From Pedobacter sp. HDW13 (GTDB lineage Bacteria > Bacteroidota > Bacteroidia > Sphingobacteriales > Sphingobacteriaceae), in assembly GCF_011303555.1 (NCBI RefSeq), contig NZ_CP049868.1, positions 2,542,001 to 2,606,000 of the forward strand: 64,000 nucleotides of DNA, written 5' to 3'. Position 1 is the first letter of the stretch; every line of letters starts with the position of its first letter. The notes under the pieces were generated by a model that ran no database searches, was not told where the DNA came from, and saw only the letters and a list, made by a program, of their open reading frames with translations. A program made the translations under genes and the position numbers. This document shows, one piece after another, positions 32,402 to 37,393 of the stretch.

Positions 32402-33742
32402 ATGAATTATTCTACTTTAAAGAAAAGTGTTGCGCTTTCTTTAGTGGCATTAACAGGAGTTGCTTCTCTTGCTGTCGCTCAGGATGCTCCTGCAACCTCT
32501 TCTGCTGTCAAGGTATTTGGCGGTAGAGGTCAGTACAGAACTTGGTCTATCGGTGTACACGGTGGTGTTTTAATGCCAGTTGTAGCTATCGGTGGTTCTA
32601 ACGACTTCAACAAATGGGATGCTAACTTAGGTTACGGTTTAAACATCCGTAAACAATTAGGTCACTCTTTCGGTTTAGAATTAAACGGAACTCGTGGTAA
32701 ACTTTCTGGTAATAACGATGGTATTACTTCATCAGTTAAAGAATTCGAAACTCAATTACAATATGCAGTAGATTTACGTGGTGTTGTGAACTTAGGTTCT
32801 ATCGATTTCTTACGTCGTGAAAACTCTGTAGGCTTCTTCTTAACAGCTGGTGCTGGTATGATGGCTTATGCTCCTAAGGTAACCACTACTTCAGGTGTAA
32901 TCGACTGGAAAGGTAAAGCTATCGGTCCTGCTGATGACAGACACGATGCTAAAGACTACGTAAAAGGTTTCTATATTCCAGTTGGTGCTGGTGTTAAATT
33001 CAAGGTTTCTGAGCGTGTTAACTTTAACTTAGGTTACACTATGAACTTTGTTGACGCTGATAACGTGGATGGAATTTATGCTAAAGGTGAAAGTAAAGAT
33101 AAATTCTCTTACGGTTATGCTGGTTTAGAATTCTCTTTAGGTTCTTCTGCTAAACCAAGTTTAGAGTGGACTAACCCATTAGCTACTATGTATGATGAGT
33201 TAAAAGATCCAACTTTACGTCAAGAAGTTGAAGCATTGAAAAACCGTGTTTCTGCTGTTGAGAAATCTGTTGAAGATTTGAAAAAAGATACTGACGGTGA
33301 CGGTGTTGCTGATCAATTCGATAAATGTCCAGGTACTCCTGCTGGTACTGCTGTTGATGGTTCAGGTTGTCCTCTTCCAAAACCAGCTCCAGTTGAAACT
33401 GCTACATCTAACGTAACTGGTTTCGAAAAAATCGCTTTCGATTTCAACTCTTCAGTTTTAAAAACTGAGTCTTACCCTACTTTAGATAAATTATCTTCAG
33501 TGTTACGTGAAAACGGTGGTAAAGTAACTGTAAACGGTTACGCTTCAAGCGAAGGTACTGCTGCATATAACTTGAAATTATCTAAAGACAGAGCTAACTC
33601 TGTTAAAACTTACTTAGTAAACTCTGGCGTTAACGCTAGTCAAGTTGCTACTAAAGGTAATGGCGAAGCTAATCCAATTGCTTCTAACGATACTGAAGAA
33701 GGTCGTATCCAAAACCGTCGTGTTGAAACTGCTAGAAACTAG
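32402..33742 (+). CDS. OmpA-family outer membrane protein
   Basis: A 446-residue major outer-membrane protein. Signal peptide about 1-26; N-terminal beta-barrel about 40-265; a short coiled coil (LRQEVEALKNRVSAVEKSVE); a thrombospondin type 3-like calcium segment DTDGDGVADQFDKCPGTPAG; and a C-terminal OmpA peptidoglycan-binding domain (about 335-446) ending with GNGEANPIASNDTEEGRIQN. It links outer membrane to peptidoglycan. Codon choice is markedly restricted (GGT, GCT, TTA, AAA dominate) compared with neighbours, which with the strong promoter and terminator suggests very high expression. Confidence 0.94.
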   Translation: MNYSTLKKSVALSLVALTGVASLAVAQDAPATSSAVKVFGGRGQYRTWSIGVHGGVLMPVVAIGGSNDFNKWDANLGYGLNIRKQLGHSFGLELNGTRGKLSGNNDGITSSVKEFETQLQYAVDLRGVVNLGSIDFLRRENSVGFFLTAGAGMMAYAPKVTTTSGVIDWKGKAIGPADDRHDAKDYVKGFYIPVGAGVKFKVSERVNFNLGYTMNFVDADNVDGIYAKGESKDKFSYGYAGLEFSLGSSAKPSLEWTNPLATMYDELKDPTLRQEVEALKNRVSAVEKSVEDLKKDTDGDGVADQFDKCPGTPAGTAVDGSGCPLPKPAPVETATSNVTGFEKIAFDFNSSVLKTESYPTLDKLSSVLRENGGKVTVNGYASSEGTAAYNLKLSKDRANSVKTYLVNSGVNASQVATKGNGEANPIASNDTEEGRIQNRRVETARN

Positions 33743-33764: not shown

Positions 33765-33797
33765 AAAAAAGTCCCGATGCAAATCGGGACTTTTTTT
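33765..33797 (+). terminator. Intrinsic terminator after the OmpA-family gene
   Basis: AAAAAAGTCCCGAT and ATCGGGACTTTTTT form a 14-bp stem with a 4-base loop and T7. It is strong, as expected after a highly expressed gene. Confidence 0.93.
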
Positions 33798-33831
33798 GTG
33801 CCGTTTAGTTTTCTGTGTTAAGCTTTTTCGC

Positions 33832-33839
33832 TAAGTTTG
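33832..33839 (+). promoter_or_regulatory. -7 box for the small membrane protein-ridA-recG operon
   Basis: TAAGTTTG matches TAnnTTTG and ends four bases before the ATG at 33844, directly after the preceding terminator. It supports the reality of the short gene. Confidence 0.5.
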
Positions 33840-33843
33840 TATT

Positions 33844-33981
33844 ATGTATTTCTTTCGAAAAAAGGATCCCAACAGGCCAACCAATATCAATATCAGGATT
33901 ATGCATTTTATCAATGCACTGGCCATATCTATTTTTCTCGCAGGTATCATTTACAAGCTGATTCAGTGGCTTGCTAAGTAA
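33844..33981 (+). CDS. Small single-TM membrane protein (45 aa)
   Basis: A complete 45-residue frame, too short for usual ORF cut-offs. It starts MYFFRKKDPNRPTNINI, a basic cytoplasmic head, followed by one hydrophobic helix (about residues 21-40, ending in LIQWLAK). The positive-inside rule fits an N-in anchor. It lies between the ompA terminator and ridA, with a -7 box just before its ATG and only 15 bases to ridA, so it looks like the first gene of the ridA-EamA-recG operon. I recall similar short proteins in other Bacteroidota but cannot name the family with confidence. Confidence 0.65.
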   Translation: MYFFRKKDPNRPTNINIRIMHFINALAISIFLAGIIYKLIQWLAK

Positions 33982-33996
33982 TCTTAAAAAACACTT

Positions 33997-34377
33997 ATGA
34001 AACAAATTATTAAAACAACAAATGCTCCAGCTCCGATTGGGCCATATAGTCAGGCTGTACAAGCCGGTAACTTTTTATTCGTATCTGGTCAGGTAGCTAT
34101 TAACCCTGAAAGTGGAGAATTAAATATTGGCAATATCGAAGAAGAAACACATCAGGTAATGCGTAACCTTAAGGCTGTGCTACTTGAAGCTGGATTAAAC
34201 TTTGATCATGTGGTAAAGTCGACAATCTTTTTAAGCGATATGGGTACCTTTGCACAGGTTAATGAAGTTTATGGTCAATATTTCACTGCCGATTTTCCGG
34301 CTCGCGAGACTGTTCAGGTTTCTGTATTACCTAAAAATGTAAACGTAGAAATTTCTGTGATTGCCATTGTAGGATAA
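33997..34377 (+). CDS. ridA: RidA family enamine/imine deaminase
   Basis: A 126-residue protein of the RidA (YjgF/YER057c) family, which hydrolyses reactive enamines and imines released by PLP enzymes such as threonine dehydratase. Signatures are the N-terminal NAPAPIGPYSQAVQAGNFLF and the C-terminal FPARETVQVSVLPKNVNVEI, whose arginine binds the substrate carboxylate. Cytoplasmic trimer by family analogy. It is two bases before the EamA transporter gene. Confidence 0.95.
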   Translation: MKQIIKTTNAPAPIGPYSQAVQAGNFLFVSGQVAINPESGELNIGNIEEETHQVMRNLKAVLLEAGLNFDHVVKSTIFLSDMGTFAQVNEVYGQYFTADFPARETVQVSVLPKNVNVEISVIAIVG

Positions 34378-34379
34378 TT

Positions 34380-35282
34380 TTGGCTGCAGCTAGAAGCAAA
34401 TATTTTATTGCTGGCATTGTTCCTTACATTATCTGGGGAACAATGTCAATTCCTTTGCGTAACATAAAAGGCTTTCCGCCACAAGAAATTTTATATTACC
34501 GGATATTTGTTTCCATATTAATGGTTTGGTCAACAATTTTGTTGTTTAGAAGAGCAAGCCTTAAAAAGGATTATACTTTTTTTAAATCTCTGAACTCGTC
34601 TAATAAAACCAAACTGATACTGCTGACCGTCTTATCAGCTTTTCTAATTACTGGAAATTGGTTTACCTATATTTATGCAGTAAATGGTGTGAGTTTAAAG
34701 GCCGCTGCTTTTGCTTATATGGTTTGCCCATTGCTAACTGCCCTCTGTGGCTTTATTGTCTTAAAAGAGCAATTAAGCAGAGAAAAAATCATTGCACTAA
34801 TCGTCGCGCTAATCAGTATTCTGCTTTTGGCAACAGGTTCTTTACAAGAGGTGCTTTGGGCCATTCTGATTGCTTCATTTTATGCTGTTTACGTAATTGT
34901 TTTAAAAGTAATTAAGGGAATTGATAAATTTAATTTTCTTGGTGTACAATTAATTCTGTCGGGCTTTATGATGCTGCCTATGTATTTGGTTAATTCAGAT
35001 CTGTTTCCAATCGAAACCATTTTTTGGTCGCATATCTTTTTAATTGCCATCGTATTTACCATTATCCCTTTATTTTTAAATTCTTATGCCCTGTTGGGGA
35101 TGCCCTCATCGGCCTTGGGCATTTTAATTTATCTTAATCCTATTGTTGCTTTTGCAGTGGCATTTTTCTATTTCAAAGAACAAATAGATAGTCATCAGCT
35201 TTTTGCTTATTTGCTTTTACTATTGTCTATCGTTATTTTTAATGCGCAATTGCTAAAAAATATAGTTTATAAGAAACAATAA
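34380..35282 (+). CDS. EamA/RarD-type drug/metabolite transporter
   Basis: A 300-residue membrane protein with ten hydrophobic segments in two EamA repeats (about 5-140 and 150-290). The start region AGIVPYIIWGTMSIPLR resembles RarD proteins. Substrate unknown. TTG at 34380 is taken as start, because the first ATG would remove most of the first helix. It overlaps neither neighbour but is tightly spaced with ridA (2 bases) and recG (5 bases). Confidence 0.88.
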   Translation: MAAARSKYFIAGIVPYIIWGTMSIPLRNIKGFPPQEILYYRIFVSILMVWSTILLFRRASLKKDYTFFKSLNSSNKTKLILLTVLSAFLITGNWFTYIYAVNGVSLKAAAFAYMVCPLLTALCGFIVLKEQLSREKIIALIVALISILLLATGSLQEVLWAILIASFYAVYVIVLKVIKGIDKFNFLGVQLILSGFMMLPMYLVNSDLFPIETIFWSHIFLIAIVFTIIPLFLNSYALLGMPSSALGILIYLNPIVAFAVAFFYFKEQIDSHQLFAYLLLLLSIVIFNAQLLKNIVYKKQ

Positions 35283-35287
35283 TTATT

Positions 35288-37393
35288 TTGTTTAATTCGA
35301 TCCTAGATACTCCTGTTGAATTTATAAAAGGCGTAGGGCCTAGTCGTGCCGATGTTTTGAAAAAAGATTTAGGTCTTTTTACTTTTCAGGATATGCTGGC
35401 GCATTATCCCTTTCGGTATATCGATCGTACCAAGTATTTTAAGATCAATCAAATCAATATCGATTCTCAATATATTCAGATCATTGGACGGATAATTGGT
35501 AAAAAGGTAATTGGCGATAAAAGATCAAAGCGGGTTGTAGCTATTTTTAAAGATGAAACAGGAATAATGGAACTGGTATGGTTTCAGAGTTTAAAATGGG
35601 TTGACGATAACATTCAAGTGGGTACGGCTTACGTGGCATTTGGTAAGCCAACATCCTTTAATGGTACCTTTAGCATTTCTCATCCCGAAATGGAGCTGTA
35701 TCAGAATAAGCCTGTTGGCAGAGGAAATTTAACCTTGCAACCTGTTTATAATTCGACTGAAAAGCTAAAAAAGTTCAATCTCGATTCTAAAGGTATTCAG
35801 CGCTTAATTGCAGGGTTGCTTGATCAGGTAATTCAGCAGGTGACCGAAAATTTACCTGCATATATAATCGATAAATACCAGCTGCCGGATAAAAGACTGG
35901 CATTACTGAATATTCATTTTCCAAAGAATCAAAAGGATCTGAGTGCTGCAGAAAGACGTTTGAAATTTGAAGAGCTATTCTTTATTCAACTTCAGCTTTT
36001 ACATAACAAACAGCTTCGGCAGTTAAAATTTAAAGGGGTGGCTTTTGATAAGGTTGGAGATAAAGTGAACCGTTTTTACAAGGAGTTTTTACCCTTCGAG
36101 CTTACCAATGCGCAAAAGCGCGTGGTTAAAGAAATCAGGATTGATACCCAGCGTGGCGTGCAGATGAACCGCCTTGTACAGGGCGATGTAGGAAGCGGTA
36201 AAACCGCTGTGGCGCTAATGAGTATGCTTTTGGCTAATGATAACGGCTATCAGGCTTGTATGATGGCTCCGACCGAGATTTTGGCTCGCCAGCATTATGC
36301 TTCGATAACTGAATTGGTTACTGATGATTTAGTGAAAGTGGCTATTCTTACCGGAAATACCAAAAAGAAAGAGCGTACTATTTTGCATGAGCAGCTGGAA
36401 AGTGGAGAAATCGATATTTTGATTGGTACACACGCGCTGATCGAAGATAAAGTGCAGTTTAAAAATCTTGGTCTGGTAGTAATAGATGAGCAACACCGCT
36501 TCGGTGTAGAACAGCGTGCTAAGCTTTGGCGCAAAAATGTTATTCCTCCGCATATTCTGGTAATGACAGCAACACCCATTCCCAGAACCCTGGCTATGAC
36601 TTTATATGGAGACCTGGACGTTTCTGTTATTGATGAACTGCCTGCAGGCAGAAAGCCTATTGAAACAAAACATCTTTTTGAGGGACAACGCCTCAGGATG
36701 TTTGGATTTATGAAGCAGGAAATCGCTAAAGGCCGTCAGGTTTATATTGTTTATCCCTTAATTAAGGAAAGTGAAAAATTAGATCTTTTACATTTAGAAG
36801 CTGGTGTAGAGCAGCTGAGTTATCAGTTTCCGCGACCAGACTACCAGATGAGTATAGTGCATGGACAAATGCCAAACGCTGATAAACAGTTCGAAATGCA
36901 GCAGTTTATAGCTGGTAAAAGCCAGATAATGGTAGCCACAACAGTAATAGAAGTGGGCGTAAATGTACCTAACGCTTCTGTTATGGTGATCGAAAATTCG
37001 GAAAGGTTTGGTCTTTCTCAGCTCCACCAGTTGCGTGGAAGGGTTGGTCGTGGCGCCGAACAATCTTTCTGTATTTTAATGAGTGGGAATAAGTTGAGCA
37101 AAGAAGGTAAAGTTCGTTTAGAAACTATGGTGAGAACCAACAACGGTTTCGAAATTTCGGAGATTGATTTACAGCTACGTGGCCCAGGCGATATTACCGG
37201 AACGCAACAAAGTGGGGTTTTAGAGCTGAAGCTCGCCGATTTAGCTAAAGACCAGGTTATTTTAGCTGAAGCCAGAAATACAGTAATTGCTTTATTTGAA
37301 GATGATCCACATTTGGTTAAACCAGAACACACTGCCTTAAAAGCTCATTTACAAAAGCTCGAAAGAGGAATCTCTTTTGATAAAATAAGCTAA
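35288..37393 (+). CDS. recG: ATP-dependent DNA helicase RecG
   Basis: A 701-residue superfamily 2 helicase that reverses stalled forks and moves Holliday junctions. An N-terminal wedge/OB domain (about 1-240) binds branched DNA. The helicase motifs follow: I GDVGSGKTAVAL, Ia MAPTEILARQH, II DEQHRFG, III TATPIPRT, V VATTVIEVGVNVP and VI QLRGRVGRG. TTG at 35288 is used as start, because the following residues already match the family N-terminus (TPVEFIKGVGPSRADVL). It is the last gene of its operon. Confidence 0.96.
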   Translation: MFNSILDTPVEFIKGVGPSRADVLKKDLGLFTFQDMLAHYPFRYIDRTKYFKINQINIDSQYIQIIGRIIGKKVIGDKRSKRVVAIFKDETGIMELVWFQSLKWVDDNIQVGTAYVAFGKPTSFNGTFSISHPEMELYQNKPVGRGNLTLQPVYNSTEKLKKFNLDSKGIQRLIAGLLDQVIQQVTENLPAYIIDKYQLPDKRLALLNIHFPKNQKDLSAAERRLKFEELFFIQLQLLHNKQLRQLKFKGVAFDKVGDKVNRFYKEFLPFELTNAQKRVVKEIRIDTQRGVQMNRLVQGDVGSGKTAVALMSMLLANDNGYQACMMAPTEILARQHYASITELVTDDLVKVAILTGNTKKKERTILHEQLESGEIDILIGTHALIEDKVQFKNLGLVVIDEQHRFGVEQRAKLWRKNVIPPHILVMTATPIPRTLAMTLYGDLDVSVIDELPAGRKPIETKHLFEGQRLRMFGFMKQEIAKGRQVYIVYPLIKESEKLDLLHLEAGVEQLSYQFPRPDYQMSIVHGQMPNADKQFEMQQFIAGKSQIMVATTVIEVGVNVPNASVMVIENSERFGLSQLHQLRGRVGRGAEQSFCILMSGNKLSKEGKVRLETMVRTNNGFEISEIDLQLRGPGDITGTQQSGVLELKLADLAKDQVILAEARNTVIALFEDDPHLVKPEHTALKAHLQKLERGISFDKIS

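Follow-up and report, generated by a model that had tools for sequence, protein, structure and literature searches.

DUF6728, a conserved small membrane protein encoded ahead of ridA in Pedobacter sp. HDW13, is predicted to be translated from a leaderless mRNA

In the window analyzed, the whole 64,000-nucleotide stretch of DNA from Pedobacter sp. HDW13 (contig NZ_CP049868.1, positions 2,542,001 to 2,606,000 of the forward strand), the short frame ahead of ridA was found to encode a member of the Pfam family DUF6728 (PF20498). Because of this match and of a pN/pS far lower in frame than in the other frames, it is almost certainly a real, conserved coding gene for a membrane protein, as judged from sequence. 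On balance, the reading that we favor for the locus as a whole is that the DUF6728 protein is genuine, a single-pass microprotein of the inner membrane with 45 residues and an accessory action, and that it is encoded on a leaderless mRNA that would continue into ridA and recG.

The frame is located on the forward strand at 33844-33981, from the ATG at 33844 to the TAA stop at 33979-33981, and is complete with 45 residues (MYFFRKKDPNRPTNINIRIMHFINALAISIFLAGIIYKLIQWLAK). A start upstream of position 33835 is excluded because an in-frame TAA (33832-33834) sits within the promoter box; position 33832, the start reported earlier, is the first base of that box. The match to PF20498 was 59.9 bits (E 2.8e-16, residues 2-43 of 45) against a curated gathering cut-off of 27 bits, and it covered positions 11-53 of the 55 in the profile, the first 10 being absent here as they likewise are in much of the family. 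Purifying selection on the protein is strong: across 44 named loci the pooled pN/pS was 0.082 in frame compared to 1.26 and 2.34 in the two other forward frames, and the same 44 loci gave 0.062 for RidA. The first-pass annotation had called the protein unlisted, which needs qualifying: the family, though uncharacterized, is already listed in Pfam, so that the protein is not new. NCBIfam contained no family for the 45-residue protein, PHROGs gave only weak matches (E 0.064 and 0.32), the PDB profile search matched no chains, and Rfam had no matches at the locus. A full-text literature search on the name DUF6728 returned no paper. To our knowledge, no function has been described for this family.

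The basic head and single membrane helix proposed earlier were both borne out. The AlphaFold2 model (pLDDT 88.4) consisted of a loose basic head (residues 1-13) and a single helix (residues 14-44), and the most hydrophobic stretch was found at residues 22-40 with a mean hydropathy of 2.08. This stretch is preceded by five K/R and one D/E and followed by one K/R, and by the positive-inside rule this charge distribution suggests an N-in topology with the short basic head facing the cytoplasm. The M-H-x-x-N motif ahead of one hydrophobic helix, a mark of DUF6728 membership, was present in the alignments, and F31 was identical in 160 of 160 core sequences from six families; the cores were located via M20, H21 and N24, which makes these three residues invariant by construction and leaves F31 as the sole independent finding. 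When the helix was tested for a single conserved face, the result did not reach significance (p 0.11). In some relatives the MYFFRKKDPNRP head was lost and the helix alone was kept. The Pedobacter sp. HDW13 form shares with other PF20498 members the K-x-DPN head, the M-H-x-x-N motif and the one helix, but it lacks the first 9-10 profile positions, which correspond to the longer N-terminal stretch seen in other families of the class.

The DUF6728 family was found to be widespread within a restricted range. Among genomes of the genus Pedobacter 115 of 132 had a match, and in the family as a whole the match was present in 133 of 151 genomes and 21 of 22 genera. Two further families of the class carried it in 79 of 81 genomes (f30; 73 of 73 among the good ones) and in 64 of 81 genomes (f28; 40 of 46 among the good ones). 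When the phylum was sampled evenly, the cut-off was passed by 28 of 296 genomes, all of them within the class to which Pedobacter sp. HDW13 belongs, and none of 14 control genomes had a match. The named close relatives are Pedobacter; the search for them gave 524 stretches encoding a relative, of which 80 named loci were kept for comparison.

At the locus, the frame lies downstream of a gene for an OmpA-family outer-membrane protein (32402-33742, forward strand; Pfam OmpA, 2.2e-25), which was upstream in 69 of the 80 named loci. This gene is followed by an intrinsic terminator hairpin with a T-run (33765-33796, forward strand; -19.6 kcal/mol, z -6.8 compared to shuffles), which a pattern scanner missed and which was found by folding. 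Downstream, 15 nt separate the DUF6728 stop from the ATG of ridA (33997-34377, forward strand; Pfam PF01042, 1.2e-42), and at E 1e-5 the genome has no other RidA match. The position between a terminator and ridA, 15 nt from the latter, thus agrees with the earlier description. A ridA gene was directly downstream in all 80 named loci and in two further sets of family loci (20/20 and 20/20). The operon goes on with an EamA-family transporter (34380-35282, forward strand; Pfam PF00892, 7.3e-24) and the recG helicase (35288-37393, forward strand; Pfam DEAD, RecG_wedge and RecG_dom3_C). RecG is constant within the family (78 of 80 loci), and for the EamA gene tblastn found nothing in 32 of 80 loci and only a fragment in two more. 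Of RidA, EamA and RecG, all named alongside the frame in the first-pass annotation, only RidA was linked to DUF6728 in more than one family; EamA was rejected as a functional partner since it is often missing. Outside the family of Pedobacter sp. HDW13, neither RecG nor EamA was found near DUF6728 in flanking sequence of roughly 1.5 to 7 kb. As a separate observation, the EamA gene is unstable in its place ahead of recG, and only short remnants of it are left in loci L076 and L079.

In other families the gene keeps different company. In f30, GcpE/IspG preceded DUF6728 in 29 of 30 loci and YjbR followed it in 30 of 30, and in 20 wider loci, picked by hand and none from the family of Pedobacter sp. 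HDW13, an LpxB gene pointed towards DUF6728 in eight; the identities of LpxB, GcpE and YjbR were tested by Pfam on single members. Because ispG and yjbR or lpxB are the neighbors in these families, whereas in Pedobacter sp. HDW13 the gene heads the ridA operon, no single pathway can be read from the operon partners. The ispG-DUF6728-yjbR order in f30 (L292-L321) is tight, and the end of the DUF6728 match often abuts that of yjbR. A 98-residue hydrophobic protein with no Pfam match was also seen between lpxB and surE (L149, 8459-8755), with relatives in 4 of the 20 loci.

Bacteroidota have no Shine-Dalgarno signals, and leaderless mRNAs are held to be few among them. The TAnnTTTG box that had been noticed four bases before the ATG is present as described (TAAGTTTG, 33832-33839, forward strand; spacer TATT). 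A box was found within 8 nt of the DUF6728 ATG in 78 of the 80 named loci (3-8 nt) and at exactly 4 nt in 65, and among these 65 loci the spacer had 27 different sequences, so varied in sequence and fixed in length. No such box preceded ridA in any of the same 80 loci. For the neighboring OmpA promoter a box within 8 nt was found in 0 of 68 loci (nearest 36-59 nt from the ATG), and for the neighboring PepP promoter in 0 of 61 (nearest at least 10 nt). Scanning for sigma-70 promoters gave no forward-strand hit here, which is expected because Bacteroidota use TAnnTTTG and the sigma-70 consensus is not applicable to them. Column counts in the 65 loci with 4-nt spacing showed that a TTTTT element (33824-33828, forward strand; -20 to -16 relative to the ATG) is also conserved, and it fits the AT-rich -18 motif of Flavobacterium promoters as given in the accessible part of PMC6847099.

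In Flavobacterium the -7 box spans -12 to -5 relative to the transcription start, according to the available portions of PMC6847099 and PMC9723704, and a box at that distance followed by a 4-nt spacer would place +1 on the A of the ATG (33844, forward strand). On the strength of this spacing, the DUF6728 mRNA is very probably leaderless. Of 359 ORFs sampled from this genome, 14 had such a box no more than 8 nt from a possible ATG, in line with the fractions given in excerpts of the literature for leaderless mRNAs in Flavobacterium psychrophilum (5.5%; PMC9723704) and for 5' UTRs shorter than 10 nt in B. thetaiotaomicron (about 3.7%; PMC7366714). The survey in PMC3160421, by the part of it that was accessible, was able to detect Pribnow-type leaderless genes only. 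As in the leaderless mRNAs of Flavobacterium and Bacteroides covered by these excerpts, a -7 box would put +1 on or beside the ATG; the difference is that here one and the same gene keeps this arrangement across a family, of which no mention was found in the portions of the literature at hand. Two observations count against the leaderless reading. First, TAAGTTTG carries G at -9, a base that hardly ever occurs there in the F. johnsoniae promoter set, by the accessible part of PMC6847099. Second, across 17 genus codes of the family, only 13 of 20 loci from other genera had a TTTG box within 8 nt, at exactly 4 nt in nine. By eye, variant boxes were seen at the same distance from the DUF6728 ATG in L251 and L252 (TAACTTCG), and, under genus code g25, in L229 and L230, where TAACTTAG, with TAnnTTAG for TAnnTTTG, was still 4 nt before it; the -7 box upstream of ridA in L212-L220, under the same code, was likewise TAnnTTAG. 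Such variants may reflect lineage-specific changes in the -7 consensus.

DUF6728 is dispensable and usually kept, as judged from the 17 of 132 genus genomes that had no match and from others that keep the helix only. In 15 of the 17 the OmpA-ridA synteny was retained; of the other two, G014 had no RidA match, and in G441 the sole match was distant and did not lie by OmpA. A TAnnTTTG box was still present within 75 nt of ridA in 13 of the 15 syntenic genomes, and in L164, L197 and L205 it was 4-6 nt from the ridA ATG, so that ridA itself would be leaderless there. Upstream of ridA in L202, the promoter box was followed after 3 nt by an ATG and then directly by TAA, which looks like the ghost of the gene, as though all of the frame beyond its start had been excised. 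On a quick tree of 107 rows, at least seven changes between full and lost or eroded DUF6728, with ridA kept, were required, and one loss fell in the large clade of Pedobacter sp. HDW13 (63 rows). Disruption of the frame in close relatives while ridA is kept had been named by the first-pass annotation as grounds against it. Such loss does occur in relatives, yet it is read as the repeated loss of a selected gene and not as the drift of a meaningless frame.

RidA is an enamine/imine deaminase that clears damage, and a protein encoded beside it could be its functional partner, DUF6728 tethering or regulating RidA, or the enzyme whose reactive enamine RidA removes, at the inner membrane. The evidence that speaks for this comes from the adjacency in the family of Pedobacter sp. 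HDW13 (f1) and from f28, where ridA was directly upstream of DUF6728 on the same strand, that is in reverse order, in 26 of 30 loci (all except L265, L268, L273 and L274). Both ends could be placed in 25 of these, and the gaps ran from -1 to 107 nt; the DUF6728 start was unplaced in L264. In all five f28 genomes tested, the RidA at DUF6728 was the genome's best match to that of Pedobacter sp. HDW13, directly upstream on the same strand in four and near, on the opposite strand, in G599. Because the gene orders are opposite in f1 (DUF6728 first, as in Pedobacter sp. HDW13) and f28 (ridA first), which amounts to adjacency in independent arrangements and counts against mere descent of one arrangement, the link is probably more than an inherited position. 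The ridA link is thus seen twice, in opposite orders, yet it is not universal: in f15, f25, f29 and f30 the best RidA match lay elsewhere in the genome. While the two orders favor a link, these unlinked families speak against a strict requirement, as do the 15 syntenic Pedobacter genomes in which ridA has outlasted DUF6728, and a literature search by title and abstract gave nothing relevant on a membrane partner of RidA. We know of no such partner, and we regard a functional partnership as doubtful. The fuller proposal that DUF6728 recruits RidA to the inner membrane, has been retained next to it in two opposite orders and is made from a conserved, strictly leaderless operon mRNA in Sphingobacteriaceae, seems somewhat less probable again.

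An improbable alternative is that the frame is a cis-acting leader cistron which feeds ribosomes to ridA by translational coupling or acts as a sensing leader peptide, its product being minor. The leaderless start and short gap would suit such a role, as would the 4-nt overlap of the DUF6728 stop with the ridA start in 12 of 80 loci and the replacement of the head in several relatives that keep the box, the spacing and the helix. Against it, purifying selection acts strongly on the amino-acid sequence itself, ridA persists behind a leader of 4-73 nt where DUF6728 is gone, and no Rfam element was matched. Moreover, an attenuator is expected to be needed in cis alone and to have no conserved protein elsewhere, but homologues of the same family occur without ridA at unrelated loci in other families, as in the ispG-DUF6728-yjbR order of f30. 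A spurious frame within the ridA leader, for which the short length and the disruption or absence in 17 of 132 genus genomes with ridA kept in at least 15 could be cited, was rejected as virtually impossible given the Pfam match, the pN/pS of 0.082, the homologues at unrelated loci across several families of the class and the near-universal presence in f30.

The genuine, accessory DUF6728 protein is the preferred reading, and the earlier judgment that a small membrane protein heading the ridA operon was likely real gains support from homology, selection and synteny. By this reading, the sigma-A -7 box would be placed for a transcription start on the A of the DUF6728 ATG, the same transcript would run on into ridA and recG, and DUF6728 would be co-expressed with RidA and possibly be functionally tied to it. 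The helix may pack against a larger membrane protein via the M-H-x-x-N motif at the membrane entry and F31. We propose only tentatively that the protein acts as a small accessory inner-membrane protein. CydX, KdpF and AcrZ are small bitopic accessory proteins of the same size, with a single helix and an operon or co-expression context; unlike them, DUF6728 is not known to have a large membrane partner, and there is no sequence link between them and DUF6728.

The leaderless consequence of the 4-nt spacing and the reverse-order ridA link go beyond the first-pass annotation. With this spacing, DUF6728 lends itself to testing leaderless translation in Bacteroidota, and the ridA link in two gene orders is a first lead on the function of a protein that is near-universal in some Bacteroidota families, such as f30.
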